Shown in pieces: positions 1,999 to 31,459 of a stretch of 44,432 nt of DNA. This DNA is from an uncultured Lachnospiraceae bacterium (GTDB lineage Bacteria; Bacillota; Clostridia; Lachnospirales; Lachnospiraceae): positions 1-44,432 of the forward strand of contig CANDKY010000019.1 in the NCBI GenBank assembly GCA_947385425.1, read 5' to 3'. Position 1 is the stretch's first letter. Each line of letters begins with the position of its first letter. A program made the translations under genes and the position numbers. The notes under the pieces are model-generated. The model saw only the letters and a list, made by a program, of their open reading frames with translations. It was not told where the DNA came from and did not search any database.

Positions 1999-3156
1999 TT
2001 AACTTTCGACAATGCGCTCCCACCGTGCTATTATTATTTCTTCTCTGTAATCCCTTGCCCGCTTTCTTGCCCTGGCAGAATATTTTTTATGCAGTTCTTC
2101 ATTTTCCAGCAATTGGAGCATCCCTTCCCCGAGCATCCTTTCTTCCCTCGAAAGCTGTTCCTCCGGCGGTTTCCCTTCCATATGCGGTGTCAAGATCCCG
2201 TATTTGCAATACTGGAGCTCATCATTGCTTCCGGCCTTTCCCACTATTTCACCGCATCCGCCGCGGGAATCCGTCGTTACCACCGGTACGCCACAAGCCA
2301 TCGCTTCCACCATAGCATTCGGAAACCCATCCACTCTTGACGACATGGCAAACACTTTCGCATTAGAAAGATAATATCCTACATCTGCTGATTCACCAAT
2401 AAAAACAACTCTGTCATCCACCCGCATTTTAGTGCAGACAGATTTCAGATAATTGATCCGGTTTCCCCCGCCTACCAGAAGGAGCCTTGCCTCCGGCTGC
2501 CGTGCCGCCACATAAGAAAAGGCACGTATCATCCGTTCCTGCTGTTTGATCGGATCCAGCCTTCCTACGCTGACAACCGTCTTTGGCCCATATTCCCACG
2601 GCATATCCTTACGCAAGGGAGCATACAAAACGGACACATTTGGTATCACGGTGATTTTTTTCTCCTTTATCCCATACACTTTCGATAAATCATTTTTCAC
2701 ATATTTGCTCACGGCAACAATCTGATCTGCCTTGCTATAAAACGTTTTTATCCATTTTTCATTAAGAAGTACACCCTTGCACTCGCTTCTTTCTGACAAG
2801 ACCGTGCGTACGCTGATCACGACTTTTTCTTTCCACTTAGAGCATATATTGATATAGTTGCAGGTTTCCATAAAAGAAACCGCGATATCGATCCGGTATC
2901 TCTTTTTTAATTTTCTATAGGAACGCCCTGCAAACGCCAGTTCCCTGATAATGTCAGCCTTCTCTCCCCTGGAAAAGGGCGAAAATACGTGCGTTTTTAC
3001 AATTGTCCCTTCTGCCTGGAAAGCCGCTCTCCCACATCCTGCAAGAAGGAAATAGAAAACATGATGCCCTTTTTCATAATAATAATTTCCCAAAAAAGCA
3101 GCAACGCGTTCCGCCCCGCCTATTCCCAATGATGGAACTAAAATTGCAATATTCAT
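1999..3156 (-). CDS. Glycosyltransferase family 4
   Basis: The 385-residue GT-B glycosyltransferase starts MNIAILVPSLGIGGAERVAA, the classical GT4 opening with GGAERV. The C-terminal donor domain has VVSVGRLDPIKQQERMIRAF and GFPNAMVEAMACGVPVVTTD, which carries the EX7E-type acidic motif. No membrane segment is obvious, so it is probably a cytoplasmic, membrane-associated retaining enzyme. I prefer the ATG at 3156, with GGGAG 11 nt upstream, over an in-frame GTG at 3168. It sits between the methyltransferase and the deacetylase and is co-transcribed with them. Sugar donor and acceptor cannot be inferred. Confidence 0.9.
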   Translation of the reverse strand: MNIAILVPSLGIGGAERVAAFLGNYYYEKGHHVFYFLLAGCGRAAFQAEGTIVKTHVFSPFSRGEKADIIRELAFAGRSYRKLKKRYRIDIAVSFMETCNYINICSKWKEKVVISVRTVLSERSECKGVLLNEKWIKTFYSKADQIVAVSKYVKNDLSKVYGIKEKKITVIPNVSVLYAPLRKDMPWEYGPKTVVSVGRLDPIKQQERMIRAFSYVAARQPEARLLLVGGGNRINYLKSVCTKMRVDDRVVFIGESADVGYYLSNAKVFAMSSRVDGFPNAMVEAMACGVPVVTTDSRGGCGEIVGKAGSNDELQYCKYGILTPHMEGKPPEEQLSREERMLGEGMLQLLENEELHKKYSARARKRARDYREEIIIARWERIVES

Positions 3157-3202
3157 CCCCTGCTTCACTCCCTACTATATGTCTCTATTTCCCTGCAGCT
3201 TT

Positions 3203-3763
3203 CTAAACATCCCAGCTCTTACGAAAATAGAGTATCTTTCTTATGGAATGCCTATATGCGGCATATCCTCTGGATTTATACTCCAAAGTGTATCCCAGAT
3301 CACCCAAAAGCTTTTCATAATCATGCGCATACTGATAGGGCGGGCTCTGTACTGCATCTACAACGATCCTGTCTACCTCGTTATAGCAGAGCAGATCCCG
3401 GAAATACTGGGAACATTCCTTATCATCGATCCGATGCAGGAAATTGAGCGCTATTAAAACAGCTATCTTCTTATCTCTGACTGCATCAAAGGAACCTGTC
3501 CTGAACCGTGTCAGCGGGTGAAGTATCCTGGCGCCACGGACTGCCCTTTTATCAATATCATATCCCATCCTCTCCCGCCGATGGATCGCGGAAATAATAT
3601 CTCCCAGTCCACATCCAACCTCTATCACTGTCCCAGCCGGATTTTCCTTTTGAAGAATTTCATTTATCCGGTTGATCGTGGGCAGAGCATAAAACCTTTC
3701 ATTCAGGCTATTTAAATGCCATTTGTCAAAACCGATCATTTTCTGTAAATATTCTCTGTACAT
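3203..3763 (-). CDS. Class I SAM-dependent methyltransferase (copy A)
   Basis: A 186-residue methyltransferase with SAM-binding motif I (VIEVGCGLGDI, residues about 46-56), the acidic end of strand 2 (GYDIDKRAV) and a strand-4 region (IAVLIALNFLHRID). It is clearly paralogous to 13586-14173, sharing a KWH/EWH block near the N terminus, the ILHPxTxFRxGSF block and the GCGLGDI loop. The start follows TGAGGAAAATCA. Two such enzymes in one glycan locus suggest O- or N-methylation of the glycan or its substituents. In C. jejuni the phosphoramidate group is O-methylated by small methyltransferases beside the biosynthetic genes, so that role is possible here, but it is inference. Confidence 0.85.
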   Translation of the reverse strand: MYREYLQKMIGFDKWHLNSLNERFYALPTINRINEILQKENPAGTVIEVGCGLGDIISAIHRRERMGYDIDKRAVRGARILHPLTRFRTGSFDAVRDKKIAVLIALNFLHRIDDKECSQYFRDLLCYNEVDRIVVDAVQSPPYQYAHDYEKLLGDLGYTLEYKSRGYAAYRHSIRKILYFRKSWDV

Positions 3764-3809: not shown

Positions 3810-4298
3810 TTAAGCGTTATAGACCACATCTCCCAATGACAGCACCGGACAGCCTAATTTTACCTTCATGTCCTTTTCTATGCCGTCAAACCAATGAACG
3901 GCCGTGACAATTACAGCATCCACCGGTTCCAGTTCCTCATCCGGCCGATATACATCTGTTTCCACATATAATTCATCTGCATTCTTATCAATAGCATATT
4001 TTACTTCCACTCCGCTGCCCGCTAACTCATACAGGAGTTCCTCACCAAGTTCTTTCATGCCATAGATCGCCACCGTACGATAACCGCATTCTTGTAAATA
4101 AGCGCCGATCGTTTTCCCCTCATTATGCATATGGACCCACTGAAGCAATATCTCATAAAATTCATGAAATTTCATATCGTCTTCTTCCATTCTGCTAATG
4201 GTATTCTTTCTTGTTTTTCCTAATGTCATTTCCCCTGTCAGGATCCCGGTAATTACTCCTCCCACAAATGGCAGTGCATTTTTTATTGTATTGTTCAT
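3810..4298 (-). CDS. Small membrane-anchored Rossmann-like protein, copy 2
   Basis: This 162-residue paralogue of 564-1052 and 12206-12670 has a short hydrophobic N-terminal segment (ALPFVGGVITGILTGEMTLG). The shared WVHMHNEGKTIGAYLQECGY block follows, then the Rossmann turn AIYGMKELGEELLYEL, the strand VKYAIDKNADEL, the VDAVIVTAVHWF strand and the CPVLSLGDVVYNA tail. The conserved acidic residue after strand 2 suggests a nucleotide or sugar ligand, but no catalytic motif is seen. It is spaced 45 nt after the Rossmann-SGNH gene and precedes methyltransferase copy A. The other two copies also sit among polysaccharide genes. Function unknown; a scaffold or sensor on the inner membrane face is an inference. 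Confidence 0.85.
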   Translation of the reverse strand: MNNTIKNALPFVGGVITGILTGEMTLGKTRKNTISRMEEDDMKFHEFYEILLQWVHMHNEGKTIGAYLQECGYRTVAIYGMKELGEELLYELAGSGVEVKYAIDKNADELYVETDVYRPDEELEPVDAVIVTAVHWFDGIEKDMKVKLGCPVLSLGDVVYNA

Positions 4299-4343: not shown

Positions 4344-5429
4344 CTACCATTCGATATCCCGGATCAATTTTTCAGTAAACGCTTCCGCTCCTGTTTGATT
4401 TAAATGTGAAACATCACTATAGTGACTATCTGGGCATTGATAAGAATCAAAATAATCCAACACTTGCACGTTATGCCTTAATAATATTTCATTCAATACT
4501 TTATAAAACATATTCCTTTTTTCCTGTGGAACGTATTTCTTGTATAATGAATGTACAGGCATAATCACCATGATAGGTTTTATATGATTAGCCTCCAAAA
4601 AAGAAAGATATTCATCTAAAATCAGTTTATTTTCATATATAGTCAATGGATAATGCTTATTAAAATCTTTTTGGGCAACTCTTTTTCCTTCTTCATCATT
4701 AAGCATATAATTCAAAGTTTTTACCTCAAAAACATATGATAAATGCTCACATTTGAGCATCCTCTCAGTTTCTTTTTTTGCATATGCCGGAAAAAATCTG
4801 GAATCCATCATATTATGTGCATTTAGTATCTCGGGATAGTAACGAATGATCCTATATGCATCGCGGGACTTGGAAAAATCATACTCCATACTATAATAAC
4901 TCATTCCAACAATACAATATTTTACCCCCCCCCGCTCTTCCCATTTGCAATTATGCATTACATATTTGGCTACTTCATAATCATAAAATAAGTCTTGAGA
5001 ACCCATGGCCATATTTATAGTGGGATATTCAAATTTATTATCCATAATTCCTTCATTATGATAGGAAAGACCCGTAATTAATATCTTCATTTTGTTTTTA
5101 AACTTGTCCATCCTTTTCAGTTTCTTATGAAATAATGAATCTCTTTTAAAGCTACTATACTCATTGTATTGGTTAAACAAAATTAACCTGTCTTCACTGA
5201 TACCGTACTTTCGTACTTTTTCTAATATAGCGTCCAGATACACAGAAAAAATAATGATATAATCATATTCTATTGTGCCAAGTTCTTCCGGAGATACTAC
5301 CATTCTGTTTTCAAAGAGAGTATTTGCCGGAACAGTTTCTATAAATGCAACAATTTCTATATTATCTTTCAAAAAATATTTAAATCTTGAATATGTTCCT
5401 CCCGTTCCCCATATGGCTACTTTCATCAT
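4344..5429 (-). CDS. Rossmann-like domain fused to SGNH/GDSL hydrolase-like domain
   Basis: A 361-residue two-domain protein. Residues 1-100 are a Rossmann-like unit (MMKVAIWGTGGTYSRF, then IEIVAFIET and YDYIIIFSVYLD), resembling the stand-alone small proteins of this locus. From about residue 110 it is SGNH-like: block I ILITGLSYHNEGI, a central YCIVGMSYYSMEY segment and a C-terminal SHYSDVSHLNQTGAEAF with the Asp and His of block V. Such proteins often act in O-acyl transfer or ester hydrolysis on glycans, though the substrate is unknown. The ATG at 5429 has GGGAG 9 nt upstream; the in-frame ATG at 5438 has no usable spacing. A fragment of a second copy of its last 33 codons lies at 6705-6806. 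Confidence 0.82.
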   Translation of the reverse strand: MMKVAIWGTGGTYSRFKYFLKDNIEIVAFIETVPANTLFENRMVVSPEELGTIEYDYIIIFSVYLDAILEKVRKYGISEDRLILFNQYNEYSSFKRDSLFHKKLKRMDKFKNKMKILITGLSYHNEGIMDNKFEYPTINMAMGSQDLFYDYEVAKYVMHNCKWEERGGVKYCIVGMSYYSMEYDFSKSRDAYRIIRYYPEILNAHNMMDSRFFPAYAKKETERMLKCEHLSYVFEVKTLNYMLNDEEGKRVAQKDFNKHYPLTIYENKLILDEYLSFLEANHIKPIMVIMPVHSLYKKYVPQEKRNMFYKVLNEILLRHNVQVLDYFDSYQCPDSHYSDVSHLNQTGAEAFTEKLIRDIEW

Positions 5430-5443
5430 GGCTTCCATCTCCC

Positions 5444-6604
5444 TTATATTAACGACCCAAAATACGCATCATATTTGGCCGGTATAAATGTATCAAGCCC
5501 TGACCATGTCTGAAATGTCATTTCCCCAAACAAAATCCTTCCATCCGGCATAATATACCAATCTATCCGTACATGCCTGAAATCCTTACAGAGGATCTTT
5601 GTTAATTCCAGCATTTCATTCAGTTTCTCAGGTTTTGGCGCAGGATATATGTCCAATGGATATCCATAAGAAAACGGCTGGCGGCTCCAGTTTGTATCAT
5701 AAAAAGTTGCCGTGCATTCCGGTTTATGGCTGCCTTTTATACACCAGATGTATTTAGGTTTCCCGTGGAAACAATATACGTTATAATCATAAAGAGTTTC
5801 TGCCATACCTTCCAGGTATTCTTCCGCAATGATTTTCGGCTCAATTCCATCATAAACATTTTCAAACCTGTGAAACATATAATTTGTTGACATCCAATAG
5901 TCAACCCGCTCTTTATATTCAGAAATATTTAGTTTCTCTTTATCCTTCACCAATATGTTTCTTCCGCTTGCATTGTTTGCCTTGAGTACAAAACTTTTTG
6001 GCAGCTTGCTGAAATCAATTTCGTCCAAATTATTCCACACTCCATAATGTTTTGTTAGATGTTCCTTCCCCACTTTTTCCCCTACCCAATTACGGGCCTG
6101 GCTTTTGTCGGTAAGAATTTTATGTCTTTCATCATAAACATTCAGTTTTTCCCAATTAATCTTTTCATTATACGTCTTTGGATTATCCCAATTCATAGGT
6201 CTTCCAAATTTCTCCTTAAACATTTCATCAATCTCTTCACGGTACTCTTCCGGGCGAAGCGTAGCATGATAGTCAAGACATCTCGCCGGGAAATAACATA
6301 AAATCGATGTTTCCTGGATCCCTAATTCAACCAATTGCTTCCGTAATACATACCGTAAAACTTCATCATATACGCTGATTACATAATAGATATCCTCACG
6401 CTCTGCATGATATGGCTTTCTAATTGGTATTCCAAAAACATCATACCCCCACAAATCCTCCTTATTATCAAAAAAACAGAAAATTTTCCTCTCGTGATCA
6501 ATAAATGCTCCTGCCAGCTCCTTCCCATGTAATCCGGCGCTGACAATGATAACATCCTTTCCTTTAGTAGCTTCCAATACCTTATTTAACGATTTCCGAA
6601 ACAT
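5444..6604 (-). CDS. TupA-like ATP-grasp protein with N-terminal Rossmann-like domain
   Basis: The 386-residue protein opens with a Rossmann-like segment (KDVIIVSAGLHGKELA, CFFDNKEDLWGYDVFGIPI) seen in other enzymes of this locus. From about residue 120 it matches the TupA-like ATP-grasp family: KFGRPMNWDNPKTYNEKI, LTDKSQARNWV, FVLKANNASGRNILV, EEYLEG and RHVRIDWYIMPDGRILFGEMTF. The last supplies the usual metal-binding acidic residues. TupA is known from teichuronopeptide formation, and relatives are common in capsule loci, where they probably ligate an amino acid or amine to a uronic acid or other carboxylate. AGGAGG stands before the ATG. The gene ends 14 nt before the Rossmann-SGNH gene. 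Confidence 0.88.
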   Translation of the reverse strand: MFRKSLNKVLEATKGKDVIIVSAGLHGKELAGAFIDHERKIFCFFDNKEDLWGYDVFGIPIRKPYHAEREDIYYVISVYDEVLRYVLRKQLVELGIQETSILCYFPARCLDYHATLRPEEYREEIDEMFKEKFGRPMNWDNPKTYNEKINWEKLNVYDERHKILTDKSQARNWVGEKVGKEHLTKHYGVWNNLDEIDFSKLPKSFVLKANNASGRNILVKDKEKLNISEYKERVDYWMSTNYMFHRFENVYDGIEPKIIAEEYLEGMAETLYDYNVYCFHGKPKYIWCIKGSHKPECTATFYDTNWSRQPFSYGYPLDIYPAPKPEKLNEMLELTKILCKDFRHVRIDWYIMPDGRILFGEMTFQTWSGLDTFIPAKYDAYFGSLI

Positions 6605-6704: not shown

Positions 6705-6806
6705 CTACCACCTGATATCCTGTATCAGCTTTTCCGTAAGCATGGATGCACCCGCCTCATTGAAATGTGAAATATGACAATAATGTGTGTCCAGGCATTC
6801 ATAACT
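6705..6806 (-). pseudogene. 3' fragment of a second Rossmann-SGNH hydrolase gene
   Basis: Between the TupA-like gene and the cytidylyltransferase, the minus strand encodes 33 codons ending in TAG (SYECLDTHYCHISHFNEAGA, then SMLTEKLIQDIRW). They align without gaps to the last residues of the SGNH protein at 4344-5429 (SYQCPDSHYSDVSHLNQTGA, then EAFTEKLIRDIEW). The match stops at about 6806, inside the 3' end of the cytidylyltransferase frame. It is therefore a scar of cassette replacement or duplication, not a gene. Nothing else is seen in the roughly 200 bp between 6604 and 6799. Confidence 0.8.
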
Positions 6807-7557
6807 TTTCCACCCATCTGCACGCATTTTCATAATCCTCATTTGTGTCAAACTCTATCCAACCGTTATGAAAATGCTCTGCCTTGACATTTTTGCCACA
6901 TTCAATGATTGCGTTCAGCAAGTCCGTCATATAGGCTTTTCTGACATTTTTTCCCGACTGCTGCCACGGCTTATCCCCAAAATTAAGGTATGCTTCTTCC
7001 ATAATTTTTTCAATATGTTCCAGACCTTGCCTCGAAAATTTCAGCAACCCTATATATCTCGCATCAATATTCTCAAGTTTTGGATTTTCCAACCCTAATT
7101 CGATAATGTTTCCATCTGCATCAATTGATAAACTCTCTGTATCAAAATCTATTCTTCCATACCTCCTCTGCCAGTATTGTTTCCAGTCATCATCGACGGC
7201 AACGGCAAAATCCGCTGTTGATTTCATCATAGTTTCCAACATTTGTTCTTCAAACAAGATATCCGAATAGCTTACAATGACATCATCATCAAATTCATTC
7301 TTTGCCGCCATCAAAGACTCTACCATATTTGTATTGGCATAATCTTTATTCGTATAATATTTGATCCCTTCATACGCAATCTTTTCAGCCGCATATCCGC
7401 GTACCACAATGATATCCTCTATACCGCATTTTCTGTACATCCCTATCTGTCGCTCAATAATGGTTTTTCCCATAAAGCAGAGCATTCCTTTAGGTAAATT
7501 CTCTGTATATTTTTTAAGTCTTGTTCCCTGTCCCGCCGCCAATATAATCGCTTTCAT
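6799..7557 (-). CDS. Cytidylyltransferase, probable CTP:phosphoglutamine type (Cj1416-like)
   Basis: A 252-residue sugar-nucleotidyltransferase fold. Residues 1-14 give MKAIILAAGQGTRL with Lys23 in LPKGM, the NTP-binding signature. VIVSYSDILFEE supplies the metal-binding Asp, and the C terminus has NGWIEFDTNEDYENA. Alone it could be called a LicC-like choline-phosphate cytidylyltransferase. Its ATGA overlap with an amidotransferase-like hydrolase, and the glutamine-kinase and CDPA-kinase homologues upstream, match C. jejuni Cj1415-Cj1418. There Cj1416 makes CDP-L-glutamine from CTP and N-phosphoryl-glutamine. I therefore favour that reaction. GGAGG lies upstream of the ATG. Family assignment is firm; substrate is inferred from context. 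Confidence 0.85.
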   Translation of the reverse strand: MKAIILAAGQGTRLKKYTENLPKGMLCFMGKTIIERQIGMYRKCGIEDIIVVRGYAAEKIAYEGIKYYTNKDYANTNMVESLMAAKNEFDDDVIVSYSDILFEEQMLETMMKSTADFAVAVDDDWKQYWQRRYGRIDFDTESLSIDADGNIIELGLENPKLENIDARYIGLLKFSRQGLEHIEKIMEEAYLNFGDKPWQQSGKNVRKAYMTDLLNAIIECGKNVKAEHFHNGWIEFDTNEDYENACRWVEKL

Positions 7558-8180
7558 ATTGCTTGTTCCTCCCTGCTAAAAAGTGATTTTATTCTGGTTA
7601 TATCCCTGTATGTAAATTCCTTTTCACGTTCCGGGTGCCACATGGTTGCAACAAGAGGCAGGTATTCATGGCAAACCGCTTCTATCACACTATCTTCCGC
7701 CTGCGATATTATTTTCAGACCACAATTGCTTTGTAATTGCATACAAGCCTGATTGTGATAGCTGTTTACTTCATATTGGCCTGCCCCATCGTTTACAAGA
7801 TGCCGTACTGCAACATGTCCATCTACACCAACGAGGCTGTTCCCAAAATAATCAAGTATTGACTGCATTCCCCTGCAGAAACCATAAAGCGGTATTGATT
7901 GTTTTACAGCAATGTTTATCAATGTTGCATCCATTGCATCTCGTTCCGGCGCATTGCCACCATATTTTTCAAGGCTGTTTCCTCCTGTCAATATAATTCC
8001 TGCAGGATGAATACTGTTGACAATATCTGAAGCCAAATCTTCCCTATTTGGAACCGGTATCGGTATAAATCCACACCGTCTGATAAAATCAGCTATTCTC
8101 TGATCTGCACAGTCTCTTCTTTCTTTGTAACTTTCAATTATCTCTACGCGTTGTGTATAAATTACAGGTTTCAATAACAC
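7554..8180 (-). CDS. Class I amidotransferase-like hydrolase, probable gamma-glutamyl-CDP-amidate hydrolase (Cj1417-like)
   Basis: The 208-residue protein belongs to the class I glutamine amidotransferase (peptidase C26) family. The nucleophile elbow is YGFCRGMQ (Cys102), the oxyanion strand GIILTGGNSL, and the His/Glu pair is WHPERE (His182, Glu184). In C. jejuni, Cj1417 of this family hydrolyses CDP-L-glutamine to cytidine diphosphoramidate and glutamate. Here it overlaps the cytidylyltransferase by 4 nt and follows the SGNH gene. A gamma-glutamyl-GABA-type hydrolase is the alternative, but nothing nearby suggests polyamine metabolism. The start is GTG (8180) or TTG (8174); AGGTGA is upstream and fits the TTG spacing slightly better. 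Confidence 0.85.
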   Translation of the reverse strand: MLLKPVIYTQRVEIIESYKERRDCADQRIADFIRRCGFIPIPVPNREDLASDIVNSIHPAGIILTGGNSLEKYGGNAPERDAMDATLINIAVKQSIPLYGFCRGMQSILDYFGNSLVGVDGHVAVRHLVNDGAGQYEVNSYHNQACMQLQSNCGLKIISQAEDSVIEAVCHEYLPLVATMWHPEREKEFTYRDITRIKSLFSREEQAI

Positions 8181-8200
8181 TTTTCACCTATTTTCTTTTT

Positions 8201-9280
8201 CTAAAACACATTATCAGATAGCATGATTCTGCTCCAAACATCATCCTGTCTGTATGCACGCACAAAACTTCCTGATAAAAATCCAACATAAATCAATATC
8301 TTTTTACCCGCTAGCAAGCCTTTTGGCATTTTATCTATTGTGTCCACTTTAGCAAAGGGCAAATATCTTCCTCCATAGTTCACAGGATAATTTAAATCAT
8401 ATGCCAATCTTGCCGTAATATCGCACCCTGTATACCGGTAACTTTGCAAATTGCAATTACCGATTATGCATATTTCTGACTCAATTTCTTCTCCGGTATA
8501 TATTTTATCGCTACCATTGGTTACCATTGATACACATTGCGTAATAAATTTTTCTTTTCCAAGTTTTTCACTGGAATAATCACCTGACACCCGCAAGACA
8601 TAATCCTCAATTTCTCTCTTTGTGCTTTTAAAAGCATGCTCTGAAACAGTACCATCTAAAATAGTTGTTTCTCTCAGATAGTCCGAAATTCTTTTTGCAA
8701 TCACTTGCGCTCCGTATGGAGATATGTGATGATTTTTAGAATATAAATCCCCTTTTTGTCTTACCCGTTGGAACTCATCGTAGCAATCTACTATTTCTAC
8801 TCCCAATGAACTCAGCCTATATAATTGGTTCCGCCACTGAGGTATAACAATGCGATCCGTCGGTATATCTACTCCCAATCCAATTATCTCCGGATATATT
8901 GCTATCTTGCATGGTAATGAAACATAAACAAACCGTATTCCCCGTTCCTTTAACCAATTATTCAACACACTTAATTGTTCTGTTGGAGTCCGATATATAT
9001 TTCCAAAACCAATTCTTTTAAATTCCATAGGTGCCAAATATCCCAAAATATGATGATCCAAAACATGCCCATTATTCAATATAGTAATTTTAGGTTTCAG
9101 ACTATCTGACTCCAAATTTCCATAAGCAAATTTATTTAAGATCGTTCGAAATGACTTCAATTCCGCATATCTTTGCTCATAATTTTTTAGACATTGCTCT
9201 GCTTTAAATATCCGCAACAATTTTTCATTTTCTCTTCGGATGTGATCATAACAGGAAATGATTTTCACACATGTATTCAA
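8201..9280 (-). CDS. SGNH/AlgX-AlgJ-like protein inside the phosphoramidate gene set
   Basis: A 359-residue protein with no clear signal peptide. Its middle resembles the SGNH-type AlgJ/AlgX/DHHW group: a KITILNNGHV strand, VLNNWLKERGIRFVYVSLPC, then KIAIYPEI, a conserved NHHISPYGAQVIAKRI block with catalytic-type His, and a late ICIIGNCNLQSYRYTGC segment. It starts at a TTG with a near-perfect GAAGGAG 7 nt upstream, so the 35-nt overlap with the kinase gene is real and implies translational coupling. No SGNH protein is part of the four known C. jejuni activation steps. I infer that it may transfer or remove a substituent, possibly the phosphoramidate itself, on the glycan. That role is unproven. 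Confidence 0.72.
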   Translation of the reverse strand: MNTCVKIISCYDHIRRENEKLLRIFKAEQCLKNYEQRYAELKSFRTILNKFAYGNLESDSLKPKITILNNGHVLDHHILGYLAPMEFKRIGFGNIYRTPTEQLSVLNNWLKERGIRFVYVSLPCKIAIYPEIIGLGVDIPTDRIVIPQWRNQLYRLSSLGVEIVDCYDEFQRVRQKGDLYSKNHHISPYGAQVIAKRISDYLRETTILDGTVSEHAFKSTKREIEDYVLRVSGDYSSEKLGKEKFITQCVSMVTNGSDKIYTGEEIESEICIIGNCNLQSYRYTGCDITARLAYDLNYPVNYGGRYLPFAKVDTIDKMPKGLLAGKKILIYVGFLSGSFVRAYRQDDVWSRIMLSDNVF

Positions 9281-9767
9281 TTATTTTCTCCTTCGATTCA
9301 TCAATGCTTAATATACTTGTATCAATGATCATATTACTTTTTAAAGGTCTTTCAAAATCTGCGTTTGTCCAATTAAAATTATTCAATATTCCTTGCTCGC
9401 TTAATTTATACAGTCCTTTTACATCCCGTTTTTTACATACTTCCTGATCTGTACTTACATATATTTCTATATAAATGTCCCCAAAGGTATCTCGAAACTG
9501 CTCCCTAATTTCTTCATAAGGGCAAACCAGGGCATAAATAACATTAATCCCATTTCTAACTAAATAGTGACCAATGGCACGATTTATATTCCCCATTTTG
9601 ACCCGTTCTTCTCTGTTGTATTTCATAATATTGCCTATTAATTGCCTGCTCTCATCACCGTCAATAACATCTACCGGAATATCTCCTTTCTTTAATTCTT
9701 TCGCAACGGCATTTGCCAATGTAGTTTTTCCGCTTCCGCTAAGACCTGTAAATAGCATTACAAACAT
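9246..9767 (-). CDS. APS-kinase-like protein, probable cytidine diphosphoramidate kinase (Cj1415-like)
   Basis: A 173-residue P-loop kinase of the adenylylsulfate kinase family. Walker A is FTGLSGSGKTTLA (residues about 6-18), followed by DVIDGDESRQ, NREERVKMGNINRAIG and a C-terminal CKKRDVKGLYK, all APS-kinase hallmarks. No ATP sulfurylase or other sulfate-activation gene is nearby. Instead it is embedded between homologues of Cj1418, Cj1417 and Cj1416. Cj1415 in C. jejuni is an APS-kinase relative that phosphorylates the 3'-hydroxyl of cytidine diphosphoramidate. That is the favoured role, with true APS kinase the alternative. It lies 30 nt downstream of the glutamine kinase gene and overlaps the following gene. 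Confidence 0.85.
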   Translation of the reverse strand: MFVMLFTGLSGSGKTTLANAVAKELKKGDIPVDVIDGDESRQLIGNIMKYNREERVKMGNINRAIGHYLVRNGINVIYALVCPYEEIREQFRDTFGDIYIEIYVSTDQEVCKKRDVKGLYKLSEQGILNNFNWTNADFERPLKSNMIIDTSILSIDESKEKIIEYMCENHFLL

Positions 9768-9797
9768 TTCTGGCTCTCTCTTTCTATCCTGAATTAA

Positions 9798-12137
9798 TTA
9801 CTTGATTTTAATGATCTGCTTTTTCATACAGTCGATTGTTACCCGCTTATATCTACTCCACTCAGTATAATTCTGCTCTCCAACACCAATAACCGCAGGA
9901 ATTCCCAGTTCTGCACAACGTATTGCCATATGGGAATTAGCGCCGCCATACTGTGTAACAAGCCCTCCGATTCCCTTTGCAAAGAGGAAATCATACCCTG
10001 GATCAGCCGCCTTTATAAAGACGATTTTATCCTCAATTTGCTGCCCACCGACATCGTTTATTAACACAATATCAGACGTAACGCTTTTCTGTGTAATAAA
10101 GTTTGGCTCTTCCTTAAGCAGTTCAAAAGAATAAACATCTTCCGGCTCTACTATAATGCTCGGTAATTTAATCTGTACAGCACTTTTATACTGTATCTTA
10201 TTTTCTCTGATATTCTTCGCAAAAATAGTTTTGATATCGCCTGTATACAAATCGGCATAAAGCTGCTTAACAACAGAAATATCCAAATAAGCCATATCCT
10301 CCACAGGTATACCGACTCTATTACCAAGTTCTTCCACAAGCTGTAATATCTTACTTACAGAGCGCGTAAATACAAACTTTAGATACTCTCTTCCTTCAAT
10401 GGCTTCTTTTATAAACAGCATCAATTTGTCTGCCGTTATCTCCAGTCCATTCTCCTCCAGTTCAATTTGTATACGTGTCATCTGCTCTTGTGAAAACAGA
10501 AATGTTTCATCCGTTTCTGCAATATCCGATGGAGTACCTCCTCCAAAATATTCATCAAATGCTTCGTCATACCGTCTAGACAATATGTCATATGTACCGG
10601 GACGAATATGTCCATATACTTCCAAAAAATCCTCCTCTGTCATATTCCCCTTATATAACTGTTGCAAATCCCTGTTCATTTTCTTATTGACAGTATCAAG
10701 TGAATTCATATACGCATCATATTCTTCTCTTTTTATGATCCCGATACTTACAAAGGATCTCAGAAACTGTACCGCGATGAATCCGGCTCTTGCCACTCCT
10801 GCAAATGGAAGAGTTCCATATGTTTTGCATTCCTCAATCAGCCAATATATTTTGTCAACAATTGATATATCAGTTTGAATTATTTTCCTATAAGCGTCTT
10901 CCAAAGTTGATATCTTCGCTATATCATCCCTGTATAGCCCTTTGTCTGGATCAATAATACTGTTAGTCAGATCCAGCAGCGAAAACTCAATTCTTGTGAT
11001 TTCATTTTCATTAAATCCATAATCAAGCAATTCCTTAAGTTTCGCATGCAACCCCAAATAGTAACAGGAATATACAATTTCAAATTCAATCTTATCATGG
11101 TATTTGGGATATCTGGCAAGCTTGTCTAGATAATAATTTACAAGTTTTTCAGATATCCGGTCATTTAGCTTCCGTGGTATAAAAGAGTTAAATGTTATTC
11201 TGGTATCAATATATGGTATTCCACAAAATGAAATCATCAATGGATGCATCGTCAAATCGCGATATCCATAATCATACCGCTGATGCGACCAGACATTATC
11301 CGTAATCAATTCTTTATATAAGGAAATTGCCATTTTTTTTGGCCTGACACCAAGAATTTCTGCCGGATTCCAATCGGGCATTACACCAAAACAAGTCGTA
11401 TGTCCAAGCAAAAAAGGATGCGCCGTAGAAAGCTTTTTTGCTTTTTTATAAATTCTGTCCAAAATCGGACTTAAATTAATCTTTTCGTAGAAATCTTTTC
11501 TGCCCTTCGCAATCGGTCTTACCTGCAAAATAAATACTTTACCCTCATTGTTAATTGCAAATTCAATATCAAGCACGTTAGTTCCTAAAAATTGTTCTAT
11601 CTGGTGGCAGACAGTAACAAGCTTATGCATATCCCTGTCCTTAATTGACTGTTCGGTATACTTATAATGGATAAATGTTTTTAAACTATTAGAATTCCCC
11701 GATGTTACAGCTGTTGTATCATCTCCTTCATAATAGTTTACTGTATAGTAATCCGCAAATGTTTCCATATCCACAGTAAACACCACACCAGACTTCTTTA
11801 TCTGAGCAAGCATAGGTTGAATTAAAATCTCTTCATTCAAACTCGTATCATAGGATTGATATACCTTTGCGATAGCATCTCTGACTTCATGAAAATCCGG
11901 TTTTACATTTAAGATTGATTCAAATTTCCCTGCGTTAGAGTAATTTGCTGTGTCCTCCGCCACAGACGACGAACGGACAATAATAAGTTTTCCATCTGCA
12001 AATTTCAATACTGACTTTACCGTTTCATACTCATTCCTAATAAAATCCTCACTTTTTATAGTCAGTATCGGAAGAACGCTGATAGATGATATATGTTCTT
12101 TTAAATATTTCAACATCCTTGATTTTGTATATTTCAT
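9798..12137 (-). CDS. PEP-synthase-like L-glutamine kinase (Cj1418-like)
   Basis: About 779 residues with PEP synthase/PPDK architecture. The N-terminal ATP-grasp-like domain has IIVRSSSVAEDTANYSNAG and later FILQVRPI. A long helical middle follows, then a C-terminal phosphohistidine swivelling domain with TQYGGANSHMAIRCAELGIP, whose His (about residue 736) should carry the phosphoryl group. There is no PEP/pyruvate TIM-barrel domain, so it is not a true PEP synthase. C. jejuni Cj1418 has this design and phosphorylates the amide nitrogen of glutamine, releasing AMP and phosphate. The Cj1415-, Cj1416- and Cj1417-like genes follow directly. The start is uncertain: ATG 12137 is used, and TTG 12182 and ATG 12176 are in frame. 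Confidence 0.87.
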   Translation of the reverse strand: MKYTKSRMLKYLKEHISSISVLPILTIKSEDFIRNEYETVKSVLKFADGKLIIVRSSSVAEDTANYSNAGKFESILNVKPDFHEVRDAIAKVYQSYDTSLNEEILIQPMLAQIKKSGVVFTVDMETFADYYTVNYYEGDDTTAVTSGNSNSLKTFIHYKYTEQSIKDRDMHKLVTVCHQIEQFLGTNVLDIEFAINNEGKVFILQVRPIAKGRKDFYEKINLSPILDRIYKKAKKLSTAHPFLLGHTTCFGVMPDWNPAEILGVRPKKMAISLYKELITDNVWSHQRYDYGYRDLTMHPLMISFCGIPYIDTRITFNSFIPRKLNDRISEKLVNYYLDKLARYPKYHDKIEFEIVYSCYYLGLHAKLKELLDYGFNENEITRIEFSLLDLTNSIIDPDKGLYRDDIAKISTLEDAYRKIIQTDISIVDKIYWLIEECKTYGTLPFAGVARAGFIAVQFLRSFVSIGIIKREEYDAYMNSLDTVNKKMNRDLQQLYKGNMTEEDFLEVYGHIRPGTYDILSRRYDEAFDEYFGGGTPSDIAETDETFLFSQEQMTRIQIELEENGLEITADKLMLFIKEAIEGREYLKFVFTRSVSKILQLVEELGNRVGIPVEDMAYLDISVVKQLYADLYTGDIKTIFAKNIRENKIQYKSAVQIKLPSIIVEPEDVYSFELLKEEPNFITQKSVTSDIVLINDVGGQQIEDKIVFIKAADPGYDFLFAKGIGGLVTQYGGANSHMAIRCAELGIPAVIGVGEQNYTEWSRYKRVTIDCMKKQIIKIK

Positions 12138-12205: not shown

Positions 12206-12670
12206 TTATGCCTCATATACCACGTCATTCAATGCTACAATTGGACATTTCATCTTATCTTTTAGCTCCATCTCAATGTCAGCATAATCATGGATAGCCG
12301 TCACTATGATAGCATCTACTTCCTCCAAATTATCTTTCGCCTTAAACATATTTATATTCACATCCATCTTATTTACTTTGTTGTCAATTCCATACTTTAC
12401 CACAATTCCCGTATCCTCGAGTTCTGCCCAAAGAGCGATTCCCAATTCTTTCATCCCATAAATTGCTATTGTCCTGTAACCATATTTGCGAAAATAATCC
12501 GCCAATGTACGACCGCTCTGGTGAACCTTTACCCATTGAAGCAAAACATCATAAAACTCATGGAATTTAGTACTATTTTCCTCCAGTTTATATATTTGCT
12601 TTTCCTGGCATTTTTCTCCCAGCACAAAACCCATTACCATCCCAATCATTGATAATGCAATTTCCTTCAT
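12206..12670 (-). CDS. Small membrane-anchored Rossmann-like protein, copy 3
   Basis: At 154 residues this is the shortest of the three paralogues, with an N-terminal hydrophobic segment (IALSMIGMVMGFVLG). The conserved STKFHEFYDVLLQWVKVHQS block follows, then GRTLADYFRKYGY, the Rossmann turn AIYGMKELGIAL, VVKYGIDNKVN, VDAIIVTAIHDYADIE and the CPIVALNDVVYEA tail. AAGGAGGAAGG stands before the ATG. It lies between the LicD gene and the glutamine kinase gene. All three copies therefore sit at the head of a distinct sub-block of the locus. No enzymatic signature is visible. It might gate or anchor the cytoplasmic enzymes encoded next to it. Confidence 0.85.
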   Translation of the reverse strand: MKEIALSMIGMVMGFVLGEKCQEKQIYKLEENSTKFHEFYDVLLQWVKVHQSGRTLADYFRKYGYRTIAIYGMKELGIALWAELEDTGIVVKYGIDNKVNKMDVNINMFKAKDNLEEVDAIIVTAIHDYADIEMELKDKMKCPIVALNDVVYEA

Positions 12671-12687: not shown

Positions 12688-13554
12688 TTATCTTTCCTGT
12701 CTATCCCAAAACGATACTCCTTTTGGCCTTTTCCCTCTAGGCCTCTTCATATAGTCACCGTATGTTTTCCTCAATATTTTTTTATAACCTGATGGTATTG
12801 GAAACATCGCACTTTCTATTGCCTTTCCCTCTCTATACACGGTAAATTTTACCATCACAGTATTTTGAAACCATTCAGCTTTATACAACGTTTTTTCCAA
12901 CGGATACCGTCCATTTGGACCTAATGGAACGATCAAGTATCTTCCGCATCTACTATCATATTTTCGCTGAATGTGATCCCGTATCTCACATAATCTGCTG
13001 ATATCTGTATGCTTGAATATAGTCCAACAAAGGCACTTTGATAGGAATGGTATCTGACATAAACCTGGTTTATATCCTTTTATACTGATTACCCCGTCTA
13101 TTGTTCCTAATTCCCAATACCATGCTTTCCATTTGTGCCTATTCTCCGGAGCTTTTACCAAAGGAAAAATATCTACTACAATTCCACATTTCCACGCAAT
13201 TTCTTCTCTAAAATAATCAAACTTTCTATATGTTCCGTTAACGGTCACTTCCGTAAGATAATTCCAACATGGAGAATTTTTTTTGGTTCTTTTATTGATT
13301 ACAAAATATTTTCTGCTGTCTAGTTCTTCTGCCAAAATTCTGTTTGCCTTATCCCAGCACCCAGGCATTATGACAAGATCTACATCATCATCCCAAGGTA
13401 TATATCCTCCATGCCTGATACTGCCAAGTAACGTCCCAAATGCCAGAAAATACCTGATCTCATGCTTTTTAAACAATACATCCAATTCTTTAAGCAATTT
13501 AAACAATTCAATATGGATTTCATCCACTGTCATTTTTATAAATTTTTTATTCAT
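12688..13554 (-). CDS. LicD family phosphotransferase
   Basis: The 288-residue protein has the LicD/nucleotidyltransferase-fold core FLAFGTLLGSIRHGGYIPWD followed by DDVDLVIM, near residues 38-65, with the paired acidic residues that hold the metal. Family members such as LicD of Haemophilus and pneumococcus move phosphocholine from CDP-choline onto a sugar. No choline kinase or choline transporter is visible here, whereas a CDP-phosphoramidate pathway is encoded directly downstream. LicD could therefore be the enzyme that moves the phosphoramidate group onto the glycan; this is inference from donor similarity and context. The start is ATG 13554, with a weak upstream site; ATG 13533 is possible. 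Confidence 0.85.
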   Translation of the reverse strand: MNKKFIKMTVDEIHIELFKLLKELDVLFKKHEIRYFLAFGTLLGSIRHGGYIPWDDDVDLVIMPGCWDKANRILAEELDSRKYFVINKRTKKNSPCWNYLTEVTVNGTYRKFDYFREEIAWKCGIVVDIFPLVKAPENRHKWKAWYWELGTIDGVISIKGYKPGLCQIPFLSKCLCWTIFKHTDISRLCEIRDHIQRKYDSRCGRYLIVPLGPNGRYPLEKTLYKAEWFQNTVMVKFTVYREGKAIESAMFPIPSGYKKILRKTYGDYMKRPRGKRPKGVSFWDRQER

Positions 13555-13585: not shown

Positions 13586-14173
13586 TCAATTTACTTTTTT
13601 ATAAATAATAATGTGTCGGTTCGCTCCTTGGGCGGCATTTATTCTTTTACTTTGATAACAAGCTATATATTGCTCCCCTAGAATTTCATCCCCATGGCAC
13701 TCATACCGATAAGAAGTTTTCTCTGTGCCACGCAATTCGTCCAGAACGACATATTCCACCTTGTTATTTTCTAAGATTTTCTTTATCTCCCTTTTTGTGT
13801 AATCCGGATCAATAAAATGCAGAAGATTAATCATGATCAGGCAATATACCTCCTGATTTCTGACATTTCCGAAGCTTCCCTTGCGGAACTGTGTATCCGG
13901 GTGCAATATGCCTGCCGCATATACTACCTTTTGTTCCAGATCCAATCCCATTTTCTTATTACGCCCTGCCTTTATGTATCCGATAATATCTCCCAGACCG
14001 CAACCAATTTCAATAATATGCCCGCTTATCTTTTTATCGCGTTCTATCAGGTTATTTATTATTTTGACCGTATATTGCGCATACTCCTTATCCCTGTGGC
14101 CAGAGTAATGCCATTCATCCAGACGGAATAACTTTATAAACAATTTTCTTAAAAATCTGTTCTGTCTTTTCAT
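13586..14173 (-). CDS. Class I SAM-dependent methyltransferase (copy B)
   Basis: A 195-residue paralogue of 3203-3763. Motif I is HIIEIGCGLGDI (residues about 52-63), followed by KMGLDLEQKV, AGILHPDTQFRKGSF and CLIMINLLHFI. A basic N-terminal stretch (MKRQNRFLRKLFIKLFRLDE) precedes the shared WH block and may bind membrane or substrate. ATG 14173 with GGTGGG just upstream is chosen over the in-frame GTG at 14185. It lies between the radical SAM gene (about 14 nt away) and licD. Methylation of a sugar or of the phosphoramidate oxygen is possible. The shared ILHPxTxFRxGSF block indicates that copies A and B act on related substrates. Confidence 0.85.
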   Translation of the reverse strand: MKRQNRFLRKLFIKLFRLDEWHYSGHRDKEYAQYTVKIINNLIERDKKISGHIIEIGCGLGDIIGYIKAGRNKKMGLDLEQKVVYAAGILHPDTQFRKGSFGNVRNQEVYCLIMINLLHFIDPDYTKREIKKILENNKVEYVVLDELRGTEKTSYRYECHGDEILGEQYIACYQSKRINAAQGANRHIIIYKKVN

Positions 14174-14187
14174 ATAACCCACCACTT

Positions 14188-19619: not shown

Positions 19620-19647
19620 AATCCAGAAAAGTATACTTTTTCGGATT
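19620..19647. promoter_or_regulatory. 28-bp palindromic site 1 in front of the resolvase-like gene
   Basis: The 28-bp palindrome has core AGAAAAGTATACTTTTTC and matched arms AATCC/GGATT. It shares the core with the sites at 19756-19783 and 25301-25328. It lies 24 nt upstream of the resolvase-like ATG, where promoter or operator elements are expected. Its length and central TA resemble subsite I of small serine recombinases. Binding by the nearby protein is an inference. Confidence 0.65.
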
Positions 19648-19755: not shown

Positions 19756-19783
19756 CGTCCGAAAAAGTATACTTTTTCGAACG
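19756..19783. repeat. 28-bp palindromic site 2
   Basis: The near-perfect palindrome has core CGAAAAAGTATACTTTTTCG (19760-19779) and arms CGTC/AACG. It is 136 bp from site 1, centre to centre. It matches site 3 at 25301-25328 in 25 of 28 positions, in the same orientation. On the minus strand its right side runs into a T-tract, so it could also end transcription. The roughly 270 bp to its right (19784-20050) hold no gene I can support. Confidence 0.65.
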
Positions 19784-21893: not shown

Positions 21894-24800
21894 TTAATGC
21901 ACTCTAAATTCATCCAAAATTACAGCAGCTTCTTCATAATTTAAATCGATTAATATCTCAAGAATATCCTGATATGCTGTAATCAATTCTTGATCTTCTT
22001 TTATCATATCACTACATCTGACAAAAGATTTTAATATAATCATATTTACAATGCTCTTTTGTTCCTGTATATCTCTAGCGAATTTGGTACTTTCTGTTTT
22101 TGCATCTCGAAAACTATTTCTGATAGAAATTAAAATTTCCGGCAGCAATTCATCAATACGCAACTGATATATCGTTTCTAGCAGCTTTACTACATGATAC
22201 TTTCCATATTTTGAAAACTGTTCATTTAGAAACTGCTTATCTGTAAAAGAATAAGTTGTCCTGCACTTACTCCAATCTCCACAACAATATCTTGTTACAG
22301 AAAACATAAGGGATTGGTATAATTGCAAGCGAACATTCTCCACATCTATTGCTGCTACTTTTTGCTCTATATATAAAATTTTCTTTTTACACCTATTTCT
22401 TCTTTTTGGATCAACATAAGCATCAAAAAATTCCGGCAGAAAATTTCCGAAAATATCTTTGTAAAATTCAACAGCCTCTGAAGTAAACCTTGAGAAATCT
22501 ATATCGTTAAACAATGTGTCTATAACTGTTTTTGCATCACCTGAAGCCTCAATCACCTCTCTCCGATATAATTCTACCAATTCCTGCTCTTGAAATGTAT
22601 CCACAATTTTATGCCCATCATAATCTCTATCATGATATTTCCATATATCAACCATGCATGTCAATACACTATGAATTACTTTCTCAAAAAGTTCATTATC
22701 AAAATTCAGACCACAATTTACTACATAACACAATGTTGATATGTCGTAATTATTTATGTCAAATTCCTCTATCTGTATATTCTCCTCCTCAAATAAATAT
22801 TTCGTAAATATTGCTTCTCTTTGACTATCATAGCTTTCCGCACCTTCATTCTTTATATCTCGGTCTGCCCATGATAATCCTGGCTGCATATTAGGCACAT
22901 ATACAAAATCTTTATATCCTTCATGTGTTTTGATAAAATTTGCATTATACTTTTGATGATTCATCTCATCCTCTGCCAACTTAATAATCGTATAAAACAC
23001 TGCTTGAGCAAGTTTTTTGTTAACAAGCAGATACTTTTTGATACTTATTGTCAGCTTATCTACTGAACCATCCTGTCCTGTGTACATGAGGCATCTTATT
23101 CTGTCTGGTTGTCTACAAACAGAATCTTAATTTTAGTTGTTTTATTTGGATTATTGGCAGCATATTCAGATATTGCTTTATTAACAAATTGAATTGCCCA
23201 TTGAAATCCCTCTTTGAAATTTAATCCAAACAAATTCCGCAAAAATACATTCTGATTGACATTTCTATATGAACTATTATAATATTCAGCACTTTCGCTT
23301 AACCCATATTCCTTATCTTCGTTCAACCTATTGGAATAAAAACGATAATCCTCGCTTTCTTTATTACTGTCTAGCCAAAATTCGTCTGCCACCAAACAGA
23401 TTTCTTTTGTCATTATTTTAATCAAAGCAGGATATGCATTCCGCAACGTCCATTCCATTGTATCTTTTGCTATTCGTTTTCTTATTTCATTACTTTTATA
23501 GTCATCAATTAGCCGGTTCCAAAATTCTTTTATCCATTTATTGGATACATCTGCCATTTGATAAATTGCCTCAAGACACGGTTTTGCGCTATCTATAAAG
23601 TTATAATATTTTTCAGATTTCTCCGCAATTTCTATATAATGCTCCATTATGCTACAGGCAGCTAAAGAAGCATGATTTTCTCTGTTATTCTGTCTTGCAT
23701 AATCCTTACATAATTTAATAATATCTTCTTTGTTAATAATATCTTTTTTGTATAATTGCTCACTTTCTATTATCTTTAAAAAAGCTGTTGCAAAACCTTG
23801 ACTTTACAATCCCTATTTCTGTCTGCCTTTTCCATTCATGCGATATATCGGCTGAAAAAACGAGACAGCTTAAAAATTTATCCCGATTTGATTTTATAAA
23901 CAGCTTATTAGAAATCCATATCTGATAACGTCTATATACGCATCGTCCAAGCTGTTCTATCTCATCATAGAATATTCGATATTCTCCCTTACACTCATTA
24001 AACTCCTTGTCTAAATAATGTTCAAAACAAATATCCTCAAAAATATCATATTTAAGCCTGATATTCTCGTGTCCCTGCATGATAATAATATCTTCTGAAA
24101 TTAATGCTTCTACAATATTGCTGTTTATCTCATCTTCAGGAACCCCAAGCGAAAATTTTTTAGCCCTTTCAAATACAATTTTCGTTATTGCTTCCGCTGC
24201 TTCCTGATATGTCACCCTGTATATTTTCTTTTTTTCCTGTAAGCAAATTACCTTTGTCCAAATATATTCCCTAAAAGAGCTTTCATCACCTATGTCATCA
24301 ATATCCATTTTTCTACTGACAATCATATTAATGTAAAAAGGAGACTTCAGTAAATCACTATAGGATTTCATCTCATACATTCTCTGAATAACAGGGTACT
24401 TTTCCATGATTAATATAAGTTCGTTTATCGACAAATCATCAATCTCATATGGTTTTATAGCAAAATTTGATTCTAATTTCATAAAGGCACTTTTATCGCT
24501 TGTCCTGCATGATGTTAGTATGTATGCATTTTCATAGTTGCTTACAATTTCATACAGATACTGCAACAGTTCAAATTTTGTATCTGAACAATCAGCTATA
24601 AATTCCAATGCATCAACAAAGAAAACAATTTTTTTACCGTTCAAGTATTCTAAAACAGCCTTAATATCGCACTTCCATATCCCATTTATATCAGTTGCCG
24701 CCACAAAACTTTCAGCACGTGCATACAGAACAACATCTTCATTTTCAACAATTTTCTTACATAATGCCGATTTACCACTTCCAGCACGTCCCATTATTGT

Positions 24801-25307
24801 AACAAATTTTGCATTATCCTCCTTTATTTTTTTCACAAGTGTACTTCTATCAATTTCATATTCCCCGTTAATCAGTCCATTAATATTCTTTAGTCCAGTG
24901 CTTTTACAAAAATGTATTGCTTCATTTAATTTTTCTACACTTTCATTAAATCGATCGAATTCTAACTTCAGTATATTATATAAGCTATTTAAAAAAGCAA
25001 TGTCATTTTCTGCTCTATTTATAATATCTCTTGTTGTAATCAAATCTTCCTTCTTAGTAAATGATATCTTTCCTATCTGCTTATCACCATTATAATCTTT
25101 TACTTTATCTACACTATCATTAGTGATTACAAAAAACATAACTCGATTTAAAGCAGAAAATCTCTCATCTTTAGAGTCCCTTATGTTCTCCAGTGTTGTC
25201 TTAATTTTCTTAGGTATATCCTGTGAAGTGGATACTTGAACAAAAAGTTGTTTATCCTCTGATATCAAGTCTACATATGGAAACTGCGCCTTTGGACATT
25301 TGTCCAA
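21894..25307 (-). pseudogene. SMEK-STAND NTPase defence-type gene, 5'-truncated and frameshifted
   Basis: Three adjacent frames make up one decayed gene. The first (25307-23760) keeps the rear of a SMEK-type domain (VDLISEDKQLFVQVSTSQDI), a linker, a NACHT/STAND ATPase with Walker A TIMGRAGSGKSALCK and Walker B KIVFFVDALEF, and a helical region. The second (183 codons, 23647-23096) and third (397 codons, 23087-21894) look like the helical C-terminal sensor. Removing one T from TTTTGC near 23800 turns CNSFFKDNRK-stop into ATAFLKIIESEQLY, which runs directly into the second frame. A second shift at about 23090 is likely. The N terminus of the SMEK domain is absent because the gene is cut at the 28-bp site at 25301-25328. 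Such STAND proteins are commonly antiphage sensors. Confidence 0.8.
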
Positions 25308-25328
25308 AAAAGTATACTTTTTCGAATG
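25301..25328. repeat. 28-bp palindromic site 3 at the truncated end of the STAND gene
   Basis: A copy of the site at 19756-19783, in the same orientation with three differences. The shared core is AAAAAGTATACTTTTTCGAA. The STAND reading frame is broken here: SMEK homology begins right after it on the minus strand. It marks the right edge of the 5.5-kb segment carrying the split gene, the toxin-antitoxin pair and the STAND relic. The stretch 25330-25665 holds no gene I can support. Confidence 0.65.
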
Positions 25329-31079: not shown

Positions 31080-31459
31080 TTACTGTTCACTCCCAATGTC
31101 ATTAACTTAAGGTTTCCGGCAAAACTCAAAAGTTTAAGTTTACCAGAAACCAGGAGCCTGTTTTGCTTCCGGAGGGGCCCGTCCTGTCTTTTTGCATCGT
31201 TTTGGATGGAGGTTTTACTTAACAGAAAATTCAAAAACCCAGGGGAAAATGGCCATGAATGGCCATTTTAGGCTGTGTTGGGCATGGATGCCCTTCACAG
31301 CCGACCCGGCCTGTATCAAAACATATCATCTTCTGTTTAGTAAAACCCCATCCAAATAAGCTGCAAAAAGACAGGACGGGCCCCTCCGGAAGCAAAACAG
31401 GCTCCGGCCTGCGAACCATCCCCCACACTTAAGTTAATGACATTGGGAGTGAACAGTAA
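31080..31459. repeat. 380-bp nested inverted-repeat structure (element D)
   Basis: The outer arms 31080-31111 and 31428-31459 are 32 bp and perfect (TTACTGTTCACTCCCAATGT at the start). The inner arms 31153-31196 and 31362-31405 are 44 bp and perfect, and weaker pairing extends them to about 77 bp. The centre holds two more hairpins: AAAATGGCCAT/ATGGCCATTTT (31246-31269) and GGCTGTG-GGGCAT/ATGCCC-CACAGCC (31271-31302). No credible gene is inside. It may be a foldback transposable element or a structured RNA. Confidence 0.8.

Follow-up and report, generated by a model that had tools for sequence, protein, structure and literature searches.

The locus considered here raises the question of whether a phosphoramidate group can be activated for decoration of a surface glycan in an uncultured Lachnospiraceae bacterium (GenBank assembly GCA_947385425.1), in which a compact gene set resembling the Campylobacter jejuni phosphoramidate pathway is encountered on contig CANDKY010000019.1 (positions 1 to 44,432; this entire stretch of 44,432 nucleotides is hereafter the window). 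P-N bonds are rare in biology. According to excerpts of PMC11800397, C. jejuni Cj1415 to Cj1418 convert glutamine, ATP, and CTP into cytidine diphosphate (CDP)-phosphoramidate 3'-phosphate, and no function has been assigned to Cj1419 and Cj1420, whose knock-outs display no apparent capsule change. The C. jejuni phosphoramidate has been found both methylated and unmethylated (PMC9561416, in part), and part of PMC3907429 reports cj1416-cj1418 orthologues in 13 of 30 Campylobacter strains, as well as unmethylated phosphoramidate in the lipopolysaccharide of Xanthomonas campestris and Shewanella. PMC3907429 contains neither 'Clostridi' nor 'Gram-positive' nor 'Helicobacter', and no description of the pathway in Bacillota was found among the open-access titles and abstract openings listed, which is weak evidence of absence.

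Sequence comparison indicates that the window set is a variant of the Campylobacter-type activation pathway, which would thus not be confined to Campylobacter, and production of CDP-phosphoramidate by this set is a well-supported prediction. Moreover, the set probably activates phosphoramidate for a surface glycan, with a 3'-phosphate and maybe with transfer by a LicD-family protein, and it belongs to a branch for which no Cj1419/Cj1420-type methyltransferase was found nearby. This reading is strongest for the kinase and the gene linkage and weakest for the fourth enzyme, the tailoring, and the transfer. The genes concerned are the following:

6799-7557, minus strand: Cj1416-type cytidylyltransferase (Pfam NTP_transf_3/NTP_transferase)
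7554-8180, minus strand: Cj1417-type gamma-glutamyl-CDP-amidate hydrolase family protein, a class I glutamine amidotransferase (GATase) (NF045546, 115 bits; Pfam Peptidase_C26/GATase)
8201-9280, minus strand: AlgX/SGNH-like protein of 359 amino acids, between the APS-kinase-like gene and the hydrolase gene (PF16822, 42 bits)
9246-9767, minus strand: adenosine 5'-phosphosulfate (APS)-kinase-fold protein, in a clade of its own (PF01583, 116 bits)
9798-12137, minus strand: glutamine-kinase family protein (Cj1418 type), with PPDK_N and a swivelling phosphohistidine domain (GGANSHMAIR, with H736)
12688-13554, minus strand: LicD-family protein, upstream of the set on the same strand (PF04991, 86 bits)

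An earlier, sequence-only reading of this DNA had proposed a contiguous set of four enzymes on one strand. All four proteins were indeed found in place, on the minus strand and in tight succession, but the run comprises five genes, the open reading frame (ORF) at 8201-9280 having been overlooked. The open frame of the kinase extends to 12182, beyond the called gene; a 30-bp gap separates the kinase from the APS-kinase-like gene, which the SGNH-like ORF overlaps by 35 bp at its listed start, and this ORF is followed by a 20-bp gap to the GATase gene, which in turn overlaps the nucleotidyltransferase gene by 4 bp.

Relatives of the kinase were collected in a genome scan that yielded at least 549 matches, the best 80 of which were kept. 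These were examined together with the first 24 kb of the window, a second set that this genome carries on contig C15, locus G262, and seven further genome stretches, i.e., 90 loci; L066 and L095 had no kinase ORF over threshold and were dropped, leaving 88 loci, a sample biased in favor of the query, with close relatives and contig ends among its members. The labels Cj1415 to Cj1422 of the C. jejuni ORFs were assigned on the basis of family and gene order, and the hydrolase was named by NF045546.

The window kinase scored 980 bits against NF004508 (cut-off 501), compared to 1173 bits for the C. jejuni protein of locus L049, with which it shares 48% identity. Its Pfam architecture consists of PPDK_N and the PEP-utilizers mobile domain with no phosphoenolpyruvate (PEP) barrel listed, which agrees with the PEP-synthase-like, barrel-less kinase proposed previously. 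Conservation extends over the whole length of the alignment, and the phosphohistidine motif shows no difference between the four sequences aligned (those of the window and C15, and two from C. jejuni). From 57 sequences (41 cassette and four orphan kinases from the 88 loci, and 12 of 14 weaker PPDK_N matches), a kinase tree was built by a quick method, and the program warned of long branches; in this tree the 12 other PPDK_N proteins are split off with an SH-like approximate likelihood ratio (SH-aLRT) of 100, and the window kinase sides with the C. jejuni enzyme. It belongs to a clade of seven rows (window, L128, L030, L029, L031, L085, and L129; support 100). The nearest kinases among the matches listed from named records are from Lachnospiraceae/Acetatifactor-type assemblies, and the host is presumably a gut bacterium.

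More distant kinases were encountered as well. In L131 (10148-13183), L134 (9787-12834), L132, and L133, divergent orphan kinases (33-36% identity) reside in housekeeping-type contexts; those of L131 and L134 are fused to an amidotransferase-like domain in which T-C-R-G-M-Q and W-H-P-E-R are kept, no cytidylyltransferase is present within either stretch, and these fusions might release free phosphoramidate. No kinase relatives were found in viral contigs, and a 34%-identical kinase at 682-2988 of the unannotated 'Bacteriophage sp.' record MT837632.1 from human faeces may represent mislabelled bacterial DNA.

The families recur as a linked group. The hydrolase (G), cytidylyltransferase (N), and APS-kinase-like (A) genes occur together with the kinase in 55 of the 88 loci, representing many phyla, and lie within 3 kb of the kinase on the same strand in 74/74 loci having G, 75/76 having N, and 49/63 having A. 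Since the same families recur side by side in unrelated phyla, their co-location is not due to chance. By simple patterns, the hydrolase motifs were recognized in 68/75 rows, the phosphohistidine motif in 83/88, and the P-loop in 57/64. Gene groupings in annotated plasmids include kinase, hydrolase, cytidylyltransferase, methyltransferase, and APS-kinase genes together in Azospirillum, and kinase, hydrolase, and cytidylyltransferase genes with a CDP-glycerol-glycerophosphotransferase-family gene in Vibrio, where cysD and cysN lie nearby on the other strand. A kinase match at E<=1e-60 was obtained for 14 of the 397 genomes in the host's family, counting the host itself, and some of these matches are divergent orphan kinases; in the host's class, two of 291 genomes, again including the host, exceed the curated kinase cut-off. 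The proposed extension of the system to a Gram-positive gut anaerobe thus holds in that the set is present here, but not as a unique case, given the number of kinase relatives detected. These observations indicate that Bacillota, among other phyla, encode phosphoramidate activation chemistry, with a tailoring step that varies.

Two further features of these loci concern other functions. Inositol-phosphatase-family (CysQ-like) genes are present in 16 of the 88 loci (PF00459, 137 bits in the one member scanned) and could serve to recycle the 3',5'-bisphosphate that transfer leaves behind. The kinase set at 4978-9906 of L101 lies downstream of flgJ/flgK/flgL-like genes according to our own reading, and that of L102 likewise as judged by ORF lengths, which suggests flagellin glycan decoration in these Gammaproteobacteria.

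In the proposed pathway, the kinase would phosphorylate the amide nitrogen of glutamine, the cytidylyltransferase would join the phosphoglutamine product to CTP to yield CDP-glutamine, and the class I hydrolase would strip off glutamate, leaving CDP-phosphoramidate. The 3'-phosphate is probably added by the APS-kinase-fold protein, as by Cj1415, despite its different lineage. The group may be plain phosphoramidate or a form tailored by the SGNH-like protein, and the LicD protein encoded in this gene run would perhaps transfer it to a glycan. The window set shares with the C. jejuni pathway (in which Cj1421 and Cj1422 are the transferases) the four enzyme families within one surface-polysaccharide cluster, as well as the phosphohistidine and GATase catalytic residues. 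It differs from that pathway in its APS-kinase-like protein of another lineage, its extra SGNH-like gene, its Bacillota host, and the absence of nearby methyltransferases and, in the part searched, of a DUF2972 transferase.

The window set appears to sit inside a surface-glycan-type operon, and the surface-glycan locus claimed earlier is corroborated by the LicD gene and by TupA-like and DltD-like genes beside the set. The neighboring genes include a radical SAM gene and the following:

5444-6604: TupA-like ATP-grasp, surface-glycan-type neighbor (Pfam scan)
4344-5438: DltD-like protein, surface-glycan-type neighbor (Pfam scan)
1999-3168: glycosyltransferase-like ORF (own reading of the sequence)

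Possible transferases across the 88 loci comprise DUF2972 of the C. jejuni type (18 loci), the sulfotransferase-like family c2 (25), c39 (13), and LicD (six). Two close relatives instead contain sulfatase-family genes near the kinase (L128, 62 bits; L029, 51 bits). Three LicD copies are present in the host genome, one of which is in the window. LicD relatives use CDP-choline, and on this basis LicD could act on CDP-phosphoramidate, making the protein at 12688-13554 the best candidate for transfer of the phosphoramidate group. The new transfer machinery that had been anticipated was not identified. As a transferase for the host, c2 was set aside, since it had no match in the host genome in a search without a positive control.

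Several observations weigh against this reading of the set as a whole. The scores of the window hydrolase (115 bits) and its C15 counterpart (103.5 bits) are below the curated cut-off of NF045546 (250 bits), and the window APS-kinase-like protein falls outside the Cj1415 subfamily. An APS-kinase-like gene is missing from the related sets L030 and G262 within stretches of 15.6 and 20 kb, and L030 does have c2, which misfits a simple scheme of 3'-phosphate and sulfotransferase. No DUF2972 transferase was detected among the window's ORFs up to 24 kb, the search having gone no further in this genome, and c2 had no match in the host genome when searched without a positive control. LicD is not enriched in loci without an APS-kinase-like gene, and no link was found between transferase type and presence of that gene (Fisher p 0.35 for LicD, 0.12 for c2, 0.10 for c39, and 0.38 for DUF2972). 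Finally, a Cupriavidus plasmid encodes a kinase relative (32%) with no annotated partners beside it. The earlier view that the four families are exactly those of Cj1418, Cj1415, Cj1417, and Cj1416 stands for the kinase and the cytidylyltransferase, is weakened for the hydrolase, of which the best named model is indeed the Cj1417-type family despite the sub-threshold score, and is not supported for the fourth enzyme, which was assigned to the Cj1415 family.

With respect to tailoring, no methyltransferase of the two Cj1419/Cj1420 types (m and M) is adjacent to the window set, and therefore plain or otherwise tailored phosphoramidate appears more likely than the methylated form. Such genes are present in 55 of the 88 loci (27 with both, nine with m only, 19 with M only), and 86 of the 89 such genes lie no more than 3 kb away from the kinase; in 28 loci one type was seen without the other, contig ends not being excluded. 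Two SAM-methyltransferase-like genes of the window (3203-3763 and 13586-14185) were rejected as the missing O-methyltransferases (best m/M match, E 0.011).

The second set, on contig C15 (L026, 12041-18032), encodes all four families, i.e., a cytidylyltransferase, a Cj1415-subfamily kinase, a glutamine kinase, and a hydrolase, together with both m and M. Unlike the window set, it thus has the methyltransferases and the Cj1415-subfamily enzyme, and it lies behind GmhA- and HldE-like genes (both under curated cut-offs). Its glutamine kinase is 44% identical to that of the window and belongs to a different clade of the kinase tree, so the two sets do not derive from a recent duplication. The presence of both methyltransferase homologues in the same genome, both at 40% identity to the respective C. 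jejuni proteins, would allow ordinary O-methyl phosphoramidate as in C. jejuni, with the C15 enzymes serving both sets in trans. We consider this explanation rather improbable, as m/M homologues were found in none of the seven window-clade rows in the stretches examined, six of these seven carry an SGNH-like gene or a c26/c16 pair, and the window and C15 operons each seem to lie behind a recombinase-type switch of their own. The C15 methyltransferases are 34% identical to each other, and this paralogy, together with the single-copy loci, suggests redundancy of Cj1419 and Cj1420 in C. jejuni.

In the clade members L128, L129, L029, and L031, which have kinases 60-73% identical to that of the window, APS-kinase-like proteins of the same clade, and likewise no m/M found, c26 and c16 lie between the APS-kinase-like gene and the hydrolase gene, where the window has the SGNH-like gene; in L085 an SGNH homologue lies immediately upstream of the kinase gene, and L030 has neither. 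No Pfam family was assigned to c26 (two of four scanned), and c16 is formyltransferase-like (PF00551, 41 bits in L029). The latter occurs in seven of the 88 loci and never with m/M (0/55; Fisher p 0.0007, relatedness ignored), the seven loci representing three lineages in which L101 and L102 resemble near-copies. S-x-N-H-H and G-[ND]-C-N-L-Q are common to the SGNH-like proteins of the window and L085, and by analogy with AlgX the cysteine in these two sequences presumably occupies the position of the serine nucleophile. The SGNH-like protein is thus a candidate tailoring enzyme; homologues were found neither in the 396 other genomes of the host's family (E<=1e-5) nor in plasmids (E<=0.01). A separate non-methylating branch of the pathway, with either an N-formyl phosphoramidate made by the formyltransferase-like pair or tailoring by a thiol-type SGNH protein and with LicD-type or other transfer, is a speculative and doubtful proposition. 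If true, it would imply surface groups not described so far, and methylating and non-methylating versions within one cell in separately switchable glycan operons.

The formyltransferase-like protein is encoded at 10398-11703 in L128, with equivalents in L129, L029, L031, L098, L101, and L102, and a c26 partner was detected beside c16 in all of these except L101; c16 may act on a sugar amine rather than on phosphoramidate. The SGNH-like gene of L085 (5511-6643) is in two pieces; the break, close to seven consecutive G, may reflect phase variation or sequence error.

The putative switches mentioned above consist of palindrome pairs around AAAAGTATACTTTTT, located at 19622-19645 and 19758-19781 in the window, at 36-59 and 173-196 in L026, and on contigs C12 and C1. 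At these four places in the genome the pairs lie beside the starts of resolvase-like genes, and they resemble promoter segments that can be inverted or excised and that stand at the head of glycan operons. The search gave nine sites in total (18 strand matches, compared to one in the reversed control). A single extra copy is found in the window at 25303-25326, where a SMEK/STAND-type gene (23760-25307) starts, and possibly marks an inserted block.

The hydrolase bears on the nature of the substrate. Its best named model is gamma-glutamyl-CDP-amidate hydrolase (C. jejuni, 331 bits), and it shares 33% identity with the L049 protein. All six sequences aligned, among them E. coli PuuD, retain C102, H182, and E184, so these residues alone do not separate the hydrolase from this relative. 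Activation of another N- or O-phosphorylated compound, with the same chemistry on an acceptor other than glutamine, would accommodate the sub-threshold hydrolase score and the different APS-kinase lineage; nevertheless, its probability is low, as the kinase is placed strongly within its family with whole-length conservation, and the hydrolase is kept beside it.

The cytidylyltransferase is 34-36% identical to the Campylobacter rows (34% to L049) and 80% identical to that of G262. As anticipated, it groups with C. jejuni-type rows in a tree in which 40 cassette rows (of 77) form one group (support 85) apart from 12 sugar-type rows and one partial LicC row. Its best solved-structure match is LicC (66 bits), which, with LicD in the gene run, would fit a CTP:phosphocholine cytidylyltransferase and transfer of phosphocholine. 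This alternative is very improbable and was set aside on the basis of the tree grouping, which includes only the one, partial, LicC row, and of the gene context, as it leaves the glutamine kinase and the hydrolase unexplained.

The fourth enzyme, the APS-kinase-like protein, departs from the Cj1415 subfamily. The window protein scored 96 bits against NF004041 (cut-off 127), compared to 291 for C. jejuni and 184 for C15, and is 30% identical to the L049 protein. A tree of 63 rows was built from four CysC references and 59 of the 64 locus proteins, the other five being excluded because of their length. In it, the window protein clades with L128, L129, L029, and L031 (100/95) on the CysC-reference side; a branch with support 100/96 separates this side from a second group, comprising 53 rows, to which the C. 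jejuni and C15 proteins belong, and L033 and some others are long branches. The protein resembles CysC of sulfate assimilation in PF01583 and the P-loop, but the motif R-x-x-N-[IV]-R-R of the E. coli and Nostoc CysC rows, which we take to be involved in APS binding, is absent from its row, and no ATP sulfurylase partner was found. In the host genome (97% complete) there were no matches to ATP sulfurylase PF01747 (control, matches in 5/14 genomes) or to CysD TIGR02039 (control, 10/14 genomes), and APS-kinase matches were limited to two, one in each phosphoramidate-type set. The earlier observation of an APS-kinase-like protein without sulfate genes is thereby borne out, and a non-sulfate role is likely. 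Synthesis of 3'-phosphoadenosine 5'-phosphosulfate for sulfation, the least probable alternative, was rejected because of these missing partners and the lost motif, even though the protein is nearer to Nostoc CysC (109 bits) than to C. jejuni Cj1415 (75 bits) and takes the CysC side of the tree. An APS-kinase match (42%) was also seen in a Phocaeicola plasmid stretch.

Elsewhere in the window, three paralogous small Rossmann-like proteins are encoded at 564-1052, 3810-4298, and 12206-12670 according to our reading of the sequence; the two that were scanned had no Pfam family, and relatives are also present in C15, L071, L089, and L128. Finally, a TwoAYGGAY RNA was detected at 31195-31362 on the plus strand (88.7 bits).

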